IMG/VR virus record: IMGVR_UViG_3300025141_000022
Coordinates: 1-64,000 of that record
DNA: 64,000 nucleotides
Strand: one strand, 5' to 3'
Source: a virus
In this document: positions 1-38,109 of the stretch, piece after piece
How the letters are laid out: each line of letters begins with the position of its first letter
Position numbering within the stretch: position 1 is the first letter of the stretch
The notes under the pieces: generated by a model
The model's database searches: none
Seen by the model: the letters and a program-made list of their open reading frames with translations, nothing else
Told to the model about the DNA's origin: nothing
Position numbers and translations under genes: made by a program

Positions 1-1
1 C

Positions 2-124
2 GCGGGTATCTTTCTGCGGTGGATTGAAGATCCCACAGACTTTAGGGATATTGTTGTGTTTCACAATGGAAGGGAAACACTCTGGTGCGCTTTCCAGTGC
101 GAGGTAATCAATGAAAGTCGGTGA
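2..124 (+). CDS. Small SH3-like (KVGDLV-family) protein, 3' part only
   Basis: The left edge cuts this gene. The frame beginning at base 2 is open to a TGA at 122-124 and ends in the residues EVINESR, the same C-terminal signature seen in the complete genes that follow, so it is the downstream part of another member of the tandem family. Its last 14 bases (111-124) are also the first 14 bases of the next gene in another frame. The visible 40 residues include a hydrophobic/aromatic stretch compatible with the last beta strands of a small SH3-like barrel. Its true start lies outside the window. Confidence 0.7.
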   Translation, partial: AGIFLRWIEDPTDFRDIVVFHNGRETLWCAFQCEVINESR

Positions 125-278
125 TCTGGTGCGGTGGCAATCCTGGGACAAGAGAGAGCGCGTGGGGCTCATCGTGCGTATGCGCCGATTGGAGCCAGCT
201 ATGATCCTGTGGGCATATACGCACACAGGCGAAGCTCTCAAGGCTGACGATCTGGAGGTAATCAATGAAAGTCGGTGA
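111..278 (+). CDS. Small SH3-like KVGDLV-family protein (55 aa), array member 1
   Basis: The product starts MKVGDLVRW and ends LEVINESR. The N-terminal K-V-G-D-L-V strand, a middle G-L-I-V segment and a C-terminal hydrophobic strand are the pattern of small KOW/SH3-like barrels common in marine phages; this fold is inferred from pattern. The start is fixed by GGAGGT-like sequence (GAGGT, 101-105) five bases upstream, which is itself coding sequence of the preceding gene. It overlaps the genes on both sides by 14 nt. No catalytic residues are visible; function unknown, perhaps a small host-takeover effector. It is too short for routine gene calling but the conserved junctions on both sides make it convincing. 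Confidence 0.75.
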   Translation: MKVGDLVRWQSWDKRERVGLIVRMRRLEPAMILWAYTHTGEALKADDLEVINESR

Positions 279-432
279 TCTGGTGCGTATGCGTAACGAA
301 ACGATGTGGCTTGTTACCTGTGTCGTTGGTGACGATGCGCTGCTACAAAATCTAAAGACGGGCTATCGGATATGGGCGACATGGAACCTTACACACGGCA
401 GGCTCAACTACGAAGTAGTGAGCGCAGCATGA
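265..432 (+). CDS. Small SH3-like KVGDLV-family protein (55 aa), array member 2
   Basis: The product starts MKVGDLVRMRN and has the family GDLV strand, but its C-terminus is NYEVVSAA rather than LEVI-S/N-ESR. Correspondingly the overlap with the next gene is the 4-nt ATGA type (429-432) rather than the 14-nt type. The Shine-Dalgarno sequence GGAGGT at 255-260 lies within the end of array member 1. Function unknown; it shares only the N-terminal strand and overall size with its neighbours, which suggests rapid divergence after duplication. Confidence 0.7.
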   Translation: MKVGDLVRMRNETMWLVTCVVGDDALLQNLKTGYRIWATWNLTHGRLNYEVVSAA

Positions 433-584
433 AAGTCGGTGATTTGGTAAAGTGTCACGATCAGGTTGGCTTGCTGATTAAGCAACTTCCTGGCACACCT
501 GCATACTGGATTGTCCAGTGGTCAAATGGTGTGCTGGATACGGTGAATCCCTATCTGCTGGAGTTGATCAATGAAAGTCGGTGA
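429..584 (+). CDS. Small SH3-like KVGDLV-family protein (51 aa), array member 3
   Basis: The product starts MKVGDLVKCHDQVGLLI and ends LELINESR. An upstream in-frame ATG at 372 exists, but residue alignment to the other members places the start at 429, where the ATG overlaps the TGA of the previous gene (ATGA). This is the most compact member: GDLVK, a V-G-L-L-I strand and the W-I-V-Q-W strand typical of SH3-like folds follow each other directly. The last 14 nt are shared with the next gene. Confidence 0.75.
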   Translation: MKVGDLVKCHDQVGLLIKQLPGTPAYWIVQWSNGVLDTVNPYLLELINESR

Positions 585-768
585 TATTGTTAAATATCGT
601 TCACGCTGGGGGCGGGTTACTTGCGGCATGATCGTTGAGCAAGGCGGGTGTCTGGCAACTACACCGATTTGGGTTGTTCAACGCATTAAAAGCGGCTATG
701 AAGGACAGCCAATCCGAGCGCATGTGCTACAGGGTGATATACTGGAGGTTATCAGTGAAAGTCGGTGA
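571..768 (+). CDS. Small SH3-like KVGDLV-family protein (65 aa), array member 4
   Basis: Starts MKVGDIVKYRSRWG and ends ILEVISESR. The family core (GDIV, then C-G-M-I-V, then W-V-V-Q) is present. It overlaps its neighbours by 14 nt on both sides, and its codons for L-E-V supply the GGAGGT ribosome binding site of the next gene. The cellular role cannot be inferred. Confidence 0.8.
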   Translation: MKVGDIVKYRSRWGRVTCGMIVEQGGCLATTPIWVVQRIKSGYEGQPIRAHVLQGDILEVISESR

Positions 769-3582: not shown

Positions 3583-4656
3583 ATGTCCATCGACTTCGCA
3601 ACTTTCGTTTCTATCGTCCCTCACGTCCTCAATGTCAAGAAGCCTGTTCTTGTCCGAGGTCGCCACGGCATCGGCAAGTCCTGTGTCGTCTATCAGACCG
3701 CCGACGCGATGGGCATGCCCGTCATCGAGCGTCGAGCTTCCCAGATGACCGAGGGCGATCTTCTTGGTCTGCCTTCGACTGATGGCGAAGTGACCTCTTG
3801 GAACCCACCTGAGTGGTTCAAGACCGCTTGTGAGACTCCCGTTGTCCTCTTTCTGGACGAGGTTGATCGTGCGACCATCGAGGTCCGTCAGGGCATCTTT
3901 GAGTTGACCGATAGCCGCAAGCTGGCTGGTTTCTCGCTCCACGAGGGTACGCTGATCATGGCGGCTGTCAACGGTGGCGAGCATGGCGAGCAGTACCAAG
4001 TCGGTGAAATGGATCCGGCAGAGCTTGACCGCTGGACCGTGTTTGACGTTGAGCCGTCTGTCGAAGACTGGCTCGCATGGGCCAAGGAAGCTGGCATCGA
4101 TGGTGTGATCTGGGACTTCATTAACCAGAATCACAACCACTTGGAGCACACTAGCGATTACGAGCCAAACAAGGTTTATCCTTCTCGTCGTAGCTGGGAG
4201 CGTGTCAACGAGTGCCTGACTGGTGCGGGCCTGCTTCAAGAGGATGGTTATAACTCCTCTGTGCTGTTCCAGCTTACGGGCGCGTTCGTCGGGTTTGAAG
4301 CTGCTGTTGCCTTCAACGACTTCGTTGCTAACTATGAGCGACAAGTGACCATCGAGCAGATCATCGATGAGGGTCAGATTGATAAGACTTCTGACTTCAC
4401 GATCAACGATCACTCTGCGATGGTTGAGAAGATGGAAGCCAGTGAGACTTTCGCTGATGCACTGACTGAGGATCAGGTTGCTAACCTTGCCACCTACTTC
4501 GTCACGCTGCCGTCTGAAGTGGCTATGAAGCTGTGGACGGTGATGGGTAACGGTGCCATCGAGAACACGGTTGCGCTCCATCAGGCGACCACTGCTGACG
4601 GTGTGTCGGTGTCTGGCTACCTCGTTGAACTCCTGACCGGCGAAGCGCAGAGCTAG
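3583..4656 (+). CDS. MoxR-type AAA+ ATPase (357 aa)
   Basis: Walker A is GRHGIGKS (residues about 26-33), Walker B VVLFLDEVDRA (about 87-97), followed by an AAA+ sensor region and a helical C-terminal half. The compact N-terminal P-loop, the M-P-V-I-E-R-R-A-S-Q segment and the sequence after Walker B are typical of MoxR-family ATPases. MoxR proteins act as chaperones or remodelling motors together with VWA-domain partners; the next gene is such a VWA protein with the same promoter, so the two very likely form one complex. The C-terminal half probably determines the phage-specific target, which cannot be read from sequence. ATG chosen because it follows TGGAGAACATTC. Confidence 0.9.
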   Translation: MSIDFATFVSIVPHVLNVKKPVLVRGRHGIGKSCVVYQTADAMGMPVIERRASQMTEGDLLGLPSTDGEVTSWNPPEWFKTACETPVVLFLDEVDRATIEVRQGIFELTDSRKLAGFSLHEGTLIMAAVNGGEHGEQYQVGEMDPAELDRWTVFDVEPSVEDWLAWAKEAGIDGVIWDFINQNHNHLEHTSDYEPNKVYPSRRSWERVNECLTGAGLLQEDGYNSSVLFQLTGAFVGFEAAVAFNDFVANYERQVTIEQIIDEGQIDKTSDFTINDHSAMVEKMEASETFADALTEDQVANLATYFVTLPSEVAMKLWTVMGNGAIENTVALHQATTADGVSVSGYLVELLTGEAQS

Positions 4657-4680: not shown

Positions 4681-4754
4681 TAAACCTTTCTTGACATTTT
4701 CTTGACAACTTCACTATTGATTTTTCCTGTCCAGCATGCTATATTATATATGTA
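4681..4754 (+). promoter_or_regulatory. 74-bp promoter repeat, copy 2
   Basis: Perfect copy of 3463-3536. The core promoter is TTGATT (4717-4722), 17 bp, TATATT (4740-4745), with two TTGACA boxes upstream. It drives the VWA/zincin gene at 4769. Confidence 0.8.
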
Positions 4755-4768
4755 CTAAGGAGATCCCT

Positions 4769-6001
4769 ATGACCGATTCTACTCCCAAGCCCTTTGACCT
4801 TAATCTGCACACGGCACGCCTTCTTATGAGCGAGCCGTTCTTCGCCGCTCTTTCGCGCCGAATCAACAAGTCTTCGTCTTCCGCTGTTCCGACAGCGGGT
4901 GTCAAGGTTGATAAGGATTCTGGTCAGTTTGTGATGATTTATAATCCCAAGTTCTTTGAGGGTCTGACCGACAAAGAGCGTGCCGGTGTGCTGAAGCATG
5001 AGTTTTATCACTTGGTTTTTGAGCATGTTACTGGCCGACTTCCTGAAGAGGGCATGTCACGTCTTTGGAATGTCGCTACTGACCTTTCAATCAACTCCCA
5101 TCTTCAGGGTGAGTTGCCCGATGGTTGCTGTATGCCCGGTCAAGGCCCGTTCGCTGATATGCCGCTTGGCAAGTCTGCTGAGTGGTATTTTGCTGAGTTG
5201 AAGAAGAAACAGAACGACGAGCCTGAAGACGGTGACGGTGATTCTGGCGACGGTTCTGGTGATCCTTCCGAGGATAGCGGTTCTGGACAGCCCGGTGACG
5301 GACAGCCCGATAGCTTTGACGACCATAGCGGTTGGGGCGAAGTCGATCAGGCTACTCGCGATATGGCGAAAGAGCGTCTGAAGGAGACTGTAAAGAAGGC
5401 AGCGGAAGAGGCCGCAAAGTCTAACTCATGGGGATCCGTGTCGGGTCAGGTTCGTCGGGACATCATGGAGCGTCTTCAGTCTAAGGTTGATTGGCGCAAG
5501 GTGCTTCGTTACTTCGTCAAGACCACCCAGCGTGCTAACAAGACGAGCACAGTGCGCCGAATCAACAAGCGTTACCCTTACATCCACGCTGGCAAGCGTG
5601 TCAATCGTACTGCAAAGATCGCGATCAGCATTGATCAGTCTGGTTCTGTTGACGATGGTATGCTTACCGCGTTCTTCTCCGAGTTGAACAAGCTGGCCGA
5701 TCTTGCCGAGTTTACTGTTATCCCCTTCGACACCGAGGTTGCAGAGGATAAGATTTATGTTTGGAAGAAGGGACAGCACAAGAAGGCCGAACGAGTCCTT
5801 TGCGGGGGCACCTGCTTCAACGCGCCGACCAAGTATGTCAACGCTGGCAACTTCGACGGTCACATCGTCTTGACTGACCTCTGTGCTCCTAAGCCGGTGG
5901 CTTCCAAGTGCCAACGCATGTGGATGACCACTAAGGAATATGCTCGACGCCCGTACTTCCAGACGAACGAGCGAATCATCGCTATCGACTCTAAAGTCTA
6001 A
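4769..6001 (+). CDS. VWA-like protein with N-terminal putative metallopeptidase domain (410 aa)
   Basis: The start is the ATG at 4769 behind AAGGAG (4757-4762); an earlier in-frame ATG at 4736 falls inside the promoter. Domain order: N-terminal zincin-like domain with HEFYH (near residues 77-81) in the context K-H-E-F-Y-H-L-V-F-E-H; a disordered Asp/Gly/Ser-rich linker (about 150-190); a helical segment; and a C-terminal VWA-like domain with the metal-site motif DQSGS (about residues 287-291). This matches the DUF2201-type arrangement that is paired with MoxR ATPases in bacteria. Together with the AAA+ protein encoded upstream it probably forms a two-part ATP-driven remodelling system. Confidence 0.88.
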   Translation: MTDSTPKPFDLNLHTARLLMSEPFFAALSRRINKSSSSAVPTAGVKVDKDSGQFVMIYNPKFFEGLTDKERAGVLKHEFYHLVFEHVTGRLPEEGMSRLWNVATDLSINSHLQGELPDGCCMPGQGPFADMPLGKSAEWYFAELKKKQNDEPEDGDGDSGDGSGDPSEDSGSGQPGDGQPDSFDDHSGWGEVDQATRDMAKERLKETVKKAAEEAAKSNSWGSVSGQVRRDIMERLQSKVDWRKVLRYFVKTTQRANKTSTVRRINKRYPYIHAGKRVNRTAKIAISIDQSGSVDDGMLTAFFSELNKLADLAEFTVIPFDTEVAEDKIYVWKKGQHKKAERVLCGGTCFNAPTKYVNAGNFDGHIVLTDLCAPKPVASKCQRMWMTTKEYARRPYFQTNERIIAIDSKV

Positions 6002-22655: not shown

Positions 22656-23018
22656 ATGTCTTGGAATAAAATTAATAAAAGATCTGGAGCTAACAAAAAT
22701 TACTCTCTATCTAAAAAACTCAGAAGGGATAACAAAAGCACCGATGAATTTGAGGTTATGCTTAATCAGCTTAGCTTAGAAGAGGTCATTGGGCTGAAAT
22801 TAGAGCTAGCCTCTAGAGCCGCTGGCAACAAATTATATGGATTACCGCTATGGAAATCCTTGACATGTATCTCAAAAGATGCTACTCTTAAGTATGCTTT
22901 CTCAGCATGTCGCACCAAAGGAGAGGTGGCTACATTTTTGGGAATTTCAAAATCTGATTTAAGAAAATCAGATAGAAAATATGATACTTCATCGTACTTT
23001 GAGGAGAGTACAGAATAA
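22656..23018 (+). CDS. Conserved phage protein with HTH-like C-terminal part (120 aa)
   Basis: The start is ATG 22656 behind AAAGGAATTGATC. The pattern E-E-V-I-G-L-K-L-E-L-A-S-R, L-Y-G-L-P-L-W-K-S-L and K-Y-A-F-S-A-C-R-T-K-G-E-V-A-T-F-L-G-I belongs to a family I recognise from T4-like marine phages. The last segment (T-K-G-E-V-A-T-F-L-G-I-S-K-S-D-L-R-K) reads like a Fis-type helix-turn-helix, so it may regulate transcription. It stands alone between the 10-bp repeats and the tmRNA. Confidence 0.75.
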   Translation: MSWNKINKRSGANKNYSLSKKLRRDNKSTDEFEVMLNQLSLEEVIGLKLELASRAAGNKLYGLPLWKSLTCISKDATLKYAFSACRTKGEVATFLGISKSDLRKSDRKYDTSSYFEESTE

Positions 23019-23161
23019 TTATAGACTACAAGGTTTTAAGAACGTAAGTAGGGGTTCCATGTCTCTAACGAACCTAGATTAGAAAATAGAATCAAATTTT
23101 GAAGGGAGACTGGCAGGGTGGGAGCGAGGAGGACCACCAACCTTGTGGTTCAGAAACATAA

Positions 23162-23569
23162 GGGAGCGAAATGGCTTCGACAGGGTAAGAAAGAGGAATA
23201 GTGCAAGTAGGTTAGATACGACCTTAACAGTTCAAAAACAATAGTTGCAAATAACAACAACCACTTTGAAGCAGTCGCCTTAGCGGCTTAATCAACGGGG
23301 TTTCCAATAACCTTGTTTACCAATATTGGATATCAGGTAGGATCCTGTGAAAAGAAAAAACACAATGGTAACCTCGGCTTTAAAAAAACATCTTCGGGTG
23401 GATTACCTCGCTACATGCGAGAAAGGTGAGTGGGGGCGCAACAGGTCAGTAAGCGCCGGCGGGTTAACTGACTACCTTTGTTGATTTGTGATAGTAAATC
23501 AACTAAACTTGTGAATGACTAGAATTGGACTTATTGTGGACGCGGGTTCGATTCCCGCCGCTTCCACCA
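23162..23569 (+). ncRNA. ssrA: tmRNA (transfer-messenger RNA), 408 nt
   Basis: The tRNA-like ends pair: GGGAGCG (23162-23168) with CGCTTCC (23559-23565), followed by A and an encoded CCA (23567-23569). The T arm is GCGGG-TTCGATT-CCCGC, and the 5' part has the hallmark AATGGCTTCGACAGGG. In between is a tag frame starting at GCA 23247 behind the typical TAGTT and ending TAA at 23289-23291, encoding ANNNNHFEAVALAA, with the canonical ALAA degradation signal. Length fits one-piece bacterial tmRNAs (about 350-410 nt). tmRNA with SmpB rescues stalled ribosomes and tags the products for proteolysis. No smpB gene is visible in this window, so the host protein would be used. Confidence 0.96.
23247..23291 (+). 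other. tmRNA proteolysis-tag reading frame
   Basis: Resume codon GCA, then 13 further codons and TAA give the tag ANNNNHFEAVALAA. The Ala-Asn start and the hydrophobic ALAA end match bacterial SsrA tags recognised by ClpXP-type proteases. Confidence 0.93.
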
Positions 23570-28494: not shown

Positions 28495-28749
28495 ATGAAT
28501 CCAGACTCCATTGCCAGAACAATTGCCGCCGGCATCGTTATTATGGATGATGCAGCAGCTGCAGCAAGATATATTTATAATATGAGCGACAAGCATCTTA
28601 CGGTAGAGCGCGGTGACAAAAAGACGATAGAAGATTTCATCATCAGGATAATTGAGATTGTTAGCACATATGACGAACTCTATTCAGTTAAGATCGCTTC
28701 CGAATATATGAAGATAATATTTGAAGGCCCCGATAGCTCAGTTGGATAG
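28495..28749 (+). CDS. Hypothetical protein running into a tRNA gene (84 aa)
   Basis: Alpha-helical, Ala-rich N-terminal part (M-D-D-A-A-A-A-A-R-Y-I-Y-N-M), otherwise mixed. Its last eight codons (E-G-P-D-S-S-V-G and stop) are read from the first 23 bases of the tRNA-Arg gene. Probably the original C-terminus was replaced when the tRNA was inserted or duplicated. No known family. Confidence 0.55.
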   Translation: MNPDSIARTIAAGIVIMDDAAAAARYIYNMSDKHLTVERGDKKTIEDFIIRIIEIVSTYDELYSVKIASEYMKIIFEGPDSSVG

Positions 28750-28803
28750 AGCAACAGCCTTCTAAGCTGTGGGCCGTAGGTTCGAATCCTACTCGGGGTA
28801 CCA
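28727..28803 (+). tRNA. tRNA-Arg (anticodon TCT)
   Basis: Acceptor GCCCCGA / TCGGGGT, anticodon loop CTTCTAA (TCT, reads AGA), T arm GTAGG-TTCGAAT-CCTAC, encoded CCA at 28801-28803. AGA is frequent in the A+T-rich genes of this phage, which gives a rationale for carrying it. Confidence 0.95.
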
Positions 28804-29084: not shown

Positions 29085-29696
29085 ATGAAAGATATAATTT
29101 GGAAATTATCATCAAATTCGGATGATAGGCCACCTACGAATAGTAATTCTGATGACCACAATATTGTGTCTTCTGTAAATAATGATATATATTTTTATTC
29201 AGAAGTCAATCGGCCAAAGAATTTAGATTTAAACAAGAGATTGGTTTCTATGGGCAAGACATTAATAAACAGAGCAAACTCACTAGGAATAGAAACTCCT
29301 CCCCCTATTAGGCTACATATTAATAGCTATGGTGGAAGTGTATTCGCCGGATTTTCTACAGTTGATTATATCTTAAATTCTCCGGTCCCTGTGCATAGTA
29401 TTATTGATGGATGTGCCGCCTCTGCAGCCACCGTTATGAGTGTTGTGGCTGAAAAGAGATTCATGAACAAGCATGCATATATGCTGATTCACCAGTTGTC
29501 TTCTGGAATATGGGGTAAGTACGAAGAACTGAAAGATGATATGGAAAATTGTGACTTATTGATGGAAACAATAAGACAAATATATGTAGAACACACCAAG
29601 ATACCTAAAAAGACTTTAGATCAGATGTTAAAGAGAGATCTTTGGTTTGATGCTGAGACTTGCCTAAAATATGGATTGGTGGATGAAATTATCTAA
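29085..29696 (+). CDS. clpP: ClpP-like serine protease (203 aa)
   Basis: N-terminal part up to residue 60 is phage-specific. Then come the ClpP landmarks: I-R-L-H-I-N-S-Y-G-G-S-V-F-A-G, G-C-A-A-S-A-A-T-V-M (catalytic Ser near 113), Y-M-L-I-H-Q-L-S-S (His near 135) and K-R-D-L-W-F-D-A-E (Asp). All three residues of the triad are present. It could degrade proteins together with a host Clp ATPase, possibly including products tagged by the phage tmRNA, or act as a prohead protease; S14-type proteases serve as head proteases in some phages. Size matches bacterial ClpP. Confidence 0.9.
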   Translation: MKDIIWKLSSNSDDRPPTNSNSDDHNIVSSVNNDIYFYSEVNRPKNLDLNKRLVSMGKTLINRANSLGIETPPPIRLHINSYGGSVFAGFSTVDYILNSPVPVHSIIDGCAASAATVMSVVAEKRFMNKHAYMLIHQLSSGIWGKYEELKDDMENCDLLMETIRQIYVEHTKIPKKTLDQMLKRDLWFDAETCLKYGLVDEII

Positions 29697-36774: not shown

Positions 36775-38109
36775 ATGGCAAAAAAAACATACGTCCTAGA
36801 TACTAGCGTTTATCTAACAGACCACAATTCAATTTATAGTTATAAGAACAACGATATCATTGTGCCCTTAAAGGTACTTGAAGAGATCGATGCGCATAAA
36901 AAAAGACAAGACAGCGTTGGCACAAATGCACGCTCAATTATAAGAACCTTGGACTCCTTGCGCGAACGAGGGAATCTCTGCCACGGTGTGAGATTAGGAA
37001 AAGGTCGCGGCATCGTCAGTGTGTGTAAAGGTAAAACTAGCTTACTCCCAGCAGACTTAAATTCTTCTCACCCAGATCATGTTATAATCTCTACTGCTTT
37101 AGCAGCTAAGGAAGAGAATCCATCACGAAAAATAATTGTCGTCACCCGCGATATAAACATGCGAGTCATTTGCGATTCACTATCGCTGGAGTGTGAAGAT
37201 TATATACACTCTCAGGCTGTAGAACAAGTTGAAAATGTATATAGCGGATTTGCTGAACATTTGGTGGATGATCCAATTATCGATCAGTTTTATGAAGGCG
37301 AAAAAATATACATTGAAGGCAACTTTTATCCTAACCAATTTGTTATGCTCATATCCAATGCCAATGAGAAAAAAACGGCATTAGCTAGATATATGGGCTC
37401 TGATAGAGCATTGCTTCAAGCCGGCTTTTATAAAGAGGGAGTCTGGGGTATAAACCCAAGAAATAAAGAACAAGTGTTTGCAATGGACTTGTTGATGGAC
37501 CAAAGTGTGAACGTAATCACTCTAGTTGGTCAAGCAGGCTCCGGTAAGACGCTCTGTGCCATTGCTGCTGGCTTGCAGCAGACATTACAGGCACCAAGTG
37601 GTAATAACAAGCGGAACGCCTTAGAACCGAAATATAAGCGCTTAATCGTATCCCGACCAGTTCAGCCTCTTGGCAGAGACATTGGGTTCTTGCCCGGCTC
37701 AATGGAGGAGAAGATGTCTCCTTGGTTGCGGCCCATTCAAGATAACCTTCAGTTTCTTATGGGAAATGACAGAGAAACACTCGAAATGTATATGAGTAAG
37801 GGCGTAATTGATATTGAGGCGCTAACTTATATTAGGGGTCGTTCTATTTCGAATGCATTTATTATTATTGATGAAGCGCAGAACTTAACAAGTCACGAAC
37901 TTAAGACTATAGTTACACGAGTTGGTGAAAATACAAAAATTGTTTTTACTGGTGACATTGAGCAAATAGATAATGTCTATATTGATGAAACGACGAATGG
38001 CCTAACAAACGCGGTAGAGAAATTTAAACATTATGATCTATCTGGCCATATTACGCTTATTAAAGGCGAGCGTTCCAAGGTAGCGACCTTGGGCGCAAAA
38101 ATATTATAA
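36775..38109 (+). CDS. phoH: PIN-PhoH ATPase (444 aa)
   Basis: N-terminal PIN domain: Y-V-L-D-T-S-V-Y-L (first acidic residue), V-L-E-E-I-D-A-H-K, and D near V-V-T-R-D-I-N-M. C-terminal PhoH domain: Walker A V-G-Q-A-G-S-G-K-T (near 247-255), F-I-I-I-D-E-A-Q-N (near 361-369), then T-G-D-I-E-Q-I-D. The full two-domain form (YlaK/PhoH2-like) combines RNase-type and helicase-type halves that unwind and cleave RNA. PhoH is a hallmark of marine phages, though most carry only the ATPase half. Confidence 0.93.
   Translation: MAKKTYVLDTSVYLTDHNSIYSYKNNDIIVPLKVLEEIDAHKKRQDSVGTNARSIIRTLDSLRERGNLCHGVRLGKGRGIVSVCKGKTSLLPADLNSSHPDHVIISTALAAKEENPSRKIIVVTRDINMRVICDSLSLECEDYIHSQAVEQVENVYSGFAEHLVDDPIIDQFYEGEKIYIEGNFYPNQFVMLISNANEKKTALARYMGSDRALLQAGFYKEGVWGINPRNKEQVFAMDLLMDQSVNVITLVGQAGSGKTLCAIAAGLQQTLQAPSGNNKRNALEPKYKRLIVSRPVQPLGRDIGFLPGSMEEKMSPWLRPIQDNLQFLMGNDRETLEMYMSKGVIDIEALTYIRGRSISNAFIIIDEAQNLTSHELKTIVTRVGENTKIVFTGDIEQIDNVYIDETTNGLTNAVEKFKHYDLSGHITLIKGERSKVATLGAKIL

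Follow-up and report, generated by a model that had tools for sequence, protein, structure and literature searches.

A complete tmRNA gene at a fixed position in a group of environmental T4-like phages, and a covarying structured RNA beside it

Phage-borne tmRNA genes have been reported before: an earlier list comprises mycobacteriophages (Bxz1, Wildcat and others) and Bacillus phage G (PMC4131195), and one survey found tmRNA in 402 of 18,146 phage genomes (PMC9004378). Huge phages carry both tmRNA and SmpB (PMC7162821), and in mycobacteriophage Wildcat the tmRNA is the most highly expressed lytic gene (PMC7474061). Since such genes have been listed and surveyed, a phage tmRNA is in itself a kind of phage gene already known. 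Here we describe one in a window of 64,000 nucleotides (the whole stretch of DNA analysed, positions 1 to 64,000 of IMG/VR record IMGVR_UViG_3300025141_000022) from a 184,913-base virus contig. A first-pass annotation of the window had called phage tmRNAs rare, which stands across all phages by the survey above and fails within the T4-like group considered here, where the gene is common and fixed in position.

ARAGORN and the Rfam model RF00023 gave identical bounds for a one-piece tmRNA (ssrA) gene at 23162-23569 (+), the latter with 115.2 bits (gathering score, 47), E 2.6e-44 and the complete model, 1-374, aligned; this was the only match above cut-off in the contig. The concurrence of the two confirms the complete phage tmRNA that had been annotated, whose parts are as follows.

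23162..23569 (+): one-piece tmRNA (ssrA) gene (ARAGORN; RF00023 115.2 bits, full length; covariation)
23162..23168 (+): acceptor stem 5' strand GGGAGCG, including G3 of the G3-U70 alanine identity pair (sequence)
23209..23233 (+): PK1, AGGUU/GACCU plus GA[U]AC/GUUC (alignment; paired base changes in distant phages)
23247..23291 (+): tag reading frame ANNNNHFEAVALAA plus stop, resume codon GCA (ARAGORN; relatives)
23297..23329 (+): PK2, GGGGUU/AACCUU with CCAAU/AUUGG (sequence; covariation, helices 5 and 6)
23334..23347 (+): hairpin at the PK3 position, CAGG/CCUG (covariation set, helix 7)
23348..23432 (+): extra domain, hairpins CAUC-UUCG-GGUG and CUCGC/GCGAG (alignment; absent in 21 aligned relatives)
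23435..23472 (+): PK4, GGCGC/GCGCC with GUCAGU/ACUGAC (covariation, helices 8 and 9)
23542..23569 (+): T arm, acceptor 3' strand and encoded ACCA (sequence; RF00023 alignment)

The acceptor stem, T arm, encoded CCA and tag frame, all previously described as intact, can each be read in the sequence. The stem GGGAGCG/CGCUUCC forms seven pairs, the wobble G3-U70 (alanine identity) among them, and together with the T arm, GCGGGUUCGAUUCCCGC, and the CCA it makes up the tRNA-like domain of RF00023. The tag frame, GCA AAU AAC AAC AAC CAC UUU GAA GCA GUC GCC UUA GCG GCU UAA, supplies the resume codon, stop and C-terminal degron of the family in ANNNNHFEAVALAA. Pseudoknots PK1 (S1 AGGUU/GACCU; S2 GA[U]AC/GUUC, one base bulged), PK2 and PK4 are present, and at the PK3 site only a hairpin (helix 7) is supported, followed by the extra domain of ~80 nt. 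A weak match to RF04321, 'permuted tmRNA', at 23078-23291 was rejected as a second gene, its alignment being the shared 5' end, PK1 and tag.

The single-sequence minimum free energy of the RNA is ordinary (z -1.2), as is expected of a pseudoknotted RNA, and the pseudoknots were therefore tested by comparison. A scan with the tag start matched 39 IMG/VR contigs, and 22 phage tmRNAs, the present gene included, were aligned on a structure comprising the acceptor stem, T arm, PK1, PK2, the PK3-position hairpin, PK4 and an internal stem. Across this structure 96.9% of cells pair, and compensatory changes occur at 25 of 57 pairs, compared to 11.3 in shuffles and at most 9 in slid controls; PK2, PK4, the T arm and the internal stem all carry such changes, and G3-U70 is invariant in all 22 RNAs. 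The PK1 helices are near-invariant in this set (a single G-U change), and in distant phages both are built of other bases with pairing kept, as seen by eye and uncounted. The ~80-nt stretch that separates PK4 from the third hairpin is peculiar to the present gene, the aligned relatives lacking it. Rejection of the pseudoknots by a covariance model had been named in advance as what would speak against the gene, and the outcome was the opposite, with RF00023 aligned over its full length and PK2 and PK4 covarying. RF00023 also gave 76-nt side matches in relatives, which resemble ordinary tRNAs, since matches of this sort also turn up in bacterial genomes, with comparable or higher scores.

The tag itself was compared across phages and bacteria. 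In-frame tags ending in [L/M]AA are present in all 43 distinct phage tmRNAs called by ARAGORN, as in the series ANNNNHFEQRLAA, ANNNNHFDSVRLAA, ANNNNHFEAAALAA, ANNNNHFEYALAA, ANDNVEVDYALAA and ANDDVENFEDFALAA; length and middle differ, and frame, stop and final [L/M]AA are constant. As far as sequence can tell, this constancy is selection on the translated degron, and no other sequence evidence speaks as strongly for use of the RNA as a message and for the importance of the degron. Relatives found by tag have the ANNNNHF start built in; G024 and G007, which were found via other genes, share it. At least 80 ANNNNHF stretches occur in genome contigs; among the matches listed, two are tmRNAs, both of 'Deltaproteobacteria' MAGs, whose tags, ANNNNHFAA[A/T]AVA, are the nearest bacterial ones among those matches. 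The phylum of one such MAG has further tags (ANDNVE..., ANNNKHFALAA) that resemble other phage tags, at low RNA identity. ANNNNHFEA had zero matches in the bacterial genome contigs searched, and the tmRNA is 44-55% identical to the bacterial RNAs compared versus ~75% to phage relatives. On both counts the tag was set aside as a host marker, and the proposal that it identifies the host lineage is not borne out.

The phage is T4-like by its terminase, portal (phrog_213), major head protein (phrog_138) and head maturation protease (phrog_207). Its best cultured terminase match is Flavobacterium phage immuto (46%), which has no tmRNA match; Microcystis phage Mel-JY01 (42%) has just a 17-nt tmRNA match, below cut-off. 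In 50,697 phage records, no tmRNA homologous along its length was found, only the 3' 30-35 nt matching. Elsewhere in the genome, short blocks of ATCAATGAAAGTCGGTGAT[C/T]TGGT are repeated at the start of several small genes in window 1-600 and at genome ~184400-184600, which points to a tandem gene family at the two contig ends, and this family may be why the assembly broke there. An AAA_5 ATPase (window 3583-4656, +) adjoins a DUF2201 putative metallopeptidase with a VWA-like domain (4736-6001, +), and the proteins at genome 167511-169079 and 161616-162650 are, judged by eye, candidates for GroEL and IMP dehydrogenase. Around the tmRNA the following features were placed.

22656..23018 (+): F1, 120-aa helical protein, weakly Fis/HTH-like, upstream neighbour of tmRNA in 17 phages
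23025..23149 (+): structured RNA of ~125 nt (outer stem, loop pseudoknot, hairpin), 12 nt upstream of tmRNA (covariance model, covariation)
28727..28803 (+): tRNA-Arg(TCT) of the tmRNA module, then tRNA-Leu, Gly, Pro and Thr up to 36076
29085..29696 (+): ClpP-like serine protease, downstream in the tmRNA module (PF00574 99 bits; catalytic residues intact)
36775..38109 (+): PIN-PhoH protein, PIN_4 plus PhoH (domain matches)

Over 21 tmRNA loci, taken from metagenomic contigs of unstated completeness that were picked partly by tag or ClpP (which biases frequencies) and including one tmRNA placed by RF00023 only (G004, 97 bits, missed by ARAGORN), the gene order is kept as F0, F1, tmRNA, tRNAs, ClpP, PIN-PhoH (F2), F3, F4, F6, F7. 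Each of the 17 loci that have F1 carries the tmRNA downstream of it on the same strand, at a gap of -27 to 1639 nt, and the tmRNA is mostly ahead of the tRNAs, ClpP and PIN-PhoH. A TTGACA-17-TATACT promoter is read directly upstream of the tmRNA in the sequence of some relatives (G030, G033); the F1-to-tmRNA interval of the present phage has no sigma-70-like site on the + strand. Distances between tmRNAs correlate with those between terminases (Mantel r 0.50, p 0.0004, 16 genomes; r 0.31, p 0.03 upon adding two distant genomes), and, taken with the fixed locus, this correlation is consistent with a tmRNA that is mostly vertically inherited in the group. Four relatives (G025, G026, G034 and G037, whose records may be incomplete) gave no tmRNA match, and thus the gene would not be essential. 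The tmRNA appears as a stable, positioned component of one large environmental T4-like phage group and not as a stray acquisition.

Blocks of the 143 bases that separate F1 from the tmRNA recur at the corresponding position in G036, and the element within these bases (23025-23149) was sought by pattern searches and covariance models R1 and R2. It was found in further phages (G010, G011, G019, G012, G024, G025, G034, L135, L140, L144, L351-353), with weaker matches in G014, G015 and G016. Mapped homologues are as follows.

L153:5594-5710: element homologue
L351:9214-9335 (-): element homologue
L126:2108-2226: element homologue
L133:3511-3647: element homologue
L132:5068-5202: element homologue
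L136:5792-5950: element homologue
L137:6200-6376: element homologue
L135:3977-4137: element homologue
L144:501-664: element homologue

Covariation was seen at all nine pairs of the outer stem; the hairpin loop pairs with a downstream strand in a pseudoknot (core GUCUCUAACGAA...GGCUAG), and the third stem holds too. The covariation score over 17 distinct sequences is 0.78, whereas shuffles give 0.25 and slid controls no more than 0.18, in model-fitted alignments, which favour the structure; the first four sequences had the same stems unfitted. On 12 sequences the structure also holds with the loop hairpin included. Nothing meaningful was found for the element in Rfam 15 at E up to 5-10, and cultured phages gave no match to it and none to F1. 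The element follows F1 in every locus where F1 was found within the sequence examined. It is followed at once by tmRNA in G000 and G036 only, and it occurs in contigs with no tmRNA match (L351-353, L135 and L144; the L352 contig scanned in part). A ~80-aa conserved ORF of the MWKLWKEHNNYIQGELVSKHSSEAAAL type lies between element and tmRNA in G010 and G019 (L330, L337), with similar sequence in G014, G015 and G016, and in L351 a reverse-strand reading at ~934-1974 gives a tubulin/FtsZ-like protein (GGGGGTGSA, by eye) after the F1-RNA module, with no tmRNA. A riboswitch is the less likely reading of the element, because the downstream gene varies (tmRNA, tubulin-like, small proteins) and F1 upstream is constant. 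F1 is predicted to be all-helical (pLDDT 79), its top structural match being a weak one to Fis (E 0.3), alongside weak HTH matches.

F1 and the element thus read as a module of their own with the tmRNA behind it, the element being most likely a regulatory or protein-binding RNA. We think it probable that this RNA, kept in 17 or more distinct phage sequences, is the first of a new class of structured RNAs in phages, that F1 and the RNA form a protein-RNA pair in phage takeover, and that the tmRNA is one of several genes behind them. As a strongly covarying, pseudoknotted phage RNA outside the Rfam 15 families, the element is a separate, testable discovery.

For the tmRNA, comparison across the group shows, at the level of sequence, that the tRNA-like domain, pseudoknots, tag frame and degron are intact and under selection at a fixed locus. 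The reading we favour, at a probability of roughly 85%, is a working phage tmRNA gene, a stable inherited part of the enzyme/translation region of these T4-like phages, which would raise the tmRNA supply in infection. The RNA would be transcribed together with F1 and the RNA ahead of it, trimmed by host RNases and charged with alanine by host AlaRS. Host SmpB and EF-Tu would then bring it to stalled ribosomes, where unfinished proteins would receive ANNNNHFEAVALAA and, through its terminal LAA, pass to host ClpXP, and possibly also to complexes containing the phage ClpP. Its most likely use would be to provide more tmRNA during the cutting of host and phage mRNAs, thereby returning ribosomes to phage messages.

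The first-pass annotation had gone further, proposing that the phage runs a rescue and tag-degradation pathway of its own with its ClpP, while host mRNA is degraded, for example by PIN-PhoH. Both proteins are real: the one at 36775 has PIN_4 and PhoH domains, and the one at 29085 keeps the catalytic Ser, His and Asp in alignment with E. coli ClpP, as expected for that family. It was rejected as the capsid protease and is distinct from it, a T4-type head maturation protease (phrog_207) lying at ~109744-110352 between the portal and major head genes, more than 70 kb away; ClpP is accordingly free for another job. In a second ClpP-like protein (genome 164353-164994, L009:2853-3494), Asn aligns with the catalytic Asp. 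In the sample of loci described above, 12 of the 21 contain ClpP (F5), and in 11 of these it is encoded on the tmRNA strand 0.4-9 kb further downstream, an arrangement that would suit a tmRNA that passes tagged host proteins to the phage's own intact protease; yet such a shared neighbourhood can be simple synteny. Furthermore, the check for smpB and clpX that had been suggested for the complete genome came back negative: SmpB (PF01668) is missing from all 51 records searched (the phage genome and 50 related or co-selected phage records; control genomes were positive), and a ClpX/ClpA-type unfoldase (AAA_2, PF07724) is missing from the phage genome. F1 was considered as an SmpB substitute and set aside, being predicted all-helical and at best weakly Fis-like. 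Finally, tmRNA occurs without ClpP (G012, G019) and ClpP without tmRNA (G025, G026, G037), and the two are therefore separable. The absence of SmpB and of a ClpX-type ATPase and the independence of ClpP and tmRNA make the pathway mainly the host's, such that a self-contained phage pathway is unlikely, and T4-like phages of this group would rely on host SmpB and ClpX.

Two further readings deny the gene a tagging role in infection or a function altogether. ssrA is a frequent prophage integration site, and a host tmRNA fragment could be picked up by imprecise excision or kept as an attachment site. Fragments of tmRNA do occur in prophages (PMC9004378); here, though, the gene is complete and covarying and keeps its locus across many diverged phages, with a tag found in no bacterial genome searched and at most 55% identity to the bacterial tmRNAs compared, and we regard a passenger origin as scarcely credible. 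Slightly less remote, and still very improbable, is a decoy that mainly blocks host trans-translation through titration of SmpB. Molecules of the type found in mycobacteriophage DS6A, whose RNA consists of the tRNA-like domain only, do inhibit tmRNA (PMC4131195; PMC11915505), and a tag-less RNA of DS6A form is present in a distantly related huge phage; a decoy, however, requires no tag, and here the tag frame, stop and degron have been kept through changes in length.

Compared to known systems, the RNA at 23162-23569 shares with the one-piece form of RF00023 the G3-U70 tRNA-like domain, D-loop analogue, PK1, PK2, PK4, alanine resume codon and the tag end ALAA, and differs from it in the unusual ANNNNHF tag start and in the extra ~80-nt domain between the third hairpin and PK4; at 408 nt, it exceeds the 308-391 nt of its phage relatives. 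The cultured-phage tmRNAs of Bxz1, Wildcat and Bacillus phage G are likewise complete ssrA genes on phages, but belong to a different phage group. Methylophage Melnitz (PMC9004378) is also an environmental T4-like phage with a structured RNA element ahead of its tmRNA; there, however, the tmRNA is two-piece and permuted and the element a glutamine riboswitch, whereas the 23025-23149 element has no match among the Rfam families and is seen in the absence of tmRNA as well. In the uncultured 484-kb phage LR756508.1, a 112-nt RNA at 414804-414915 (L378; 58 bits to RF00023) has a tmRNA-like acceptor stem, D-loop analogue and T arm with no tag domain, resembling the tRNA-like-domain-only form of DS6A, and an additional long tmRNA match lies at 92434-92880. 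The DS6A RNA is a phage-borne tmRNA relative without the tag domain, whereas the RNA described here is complete.
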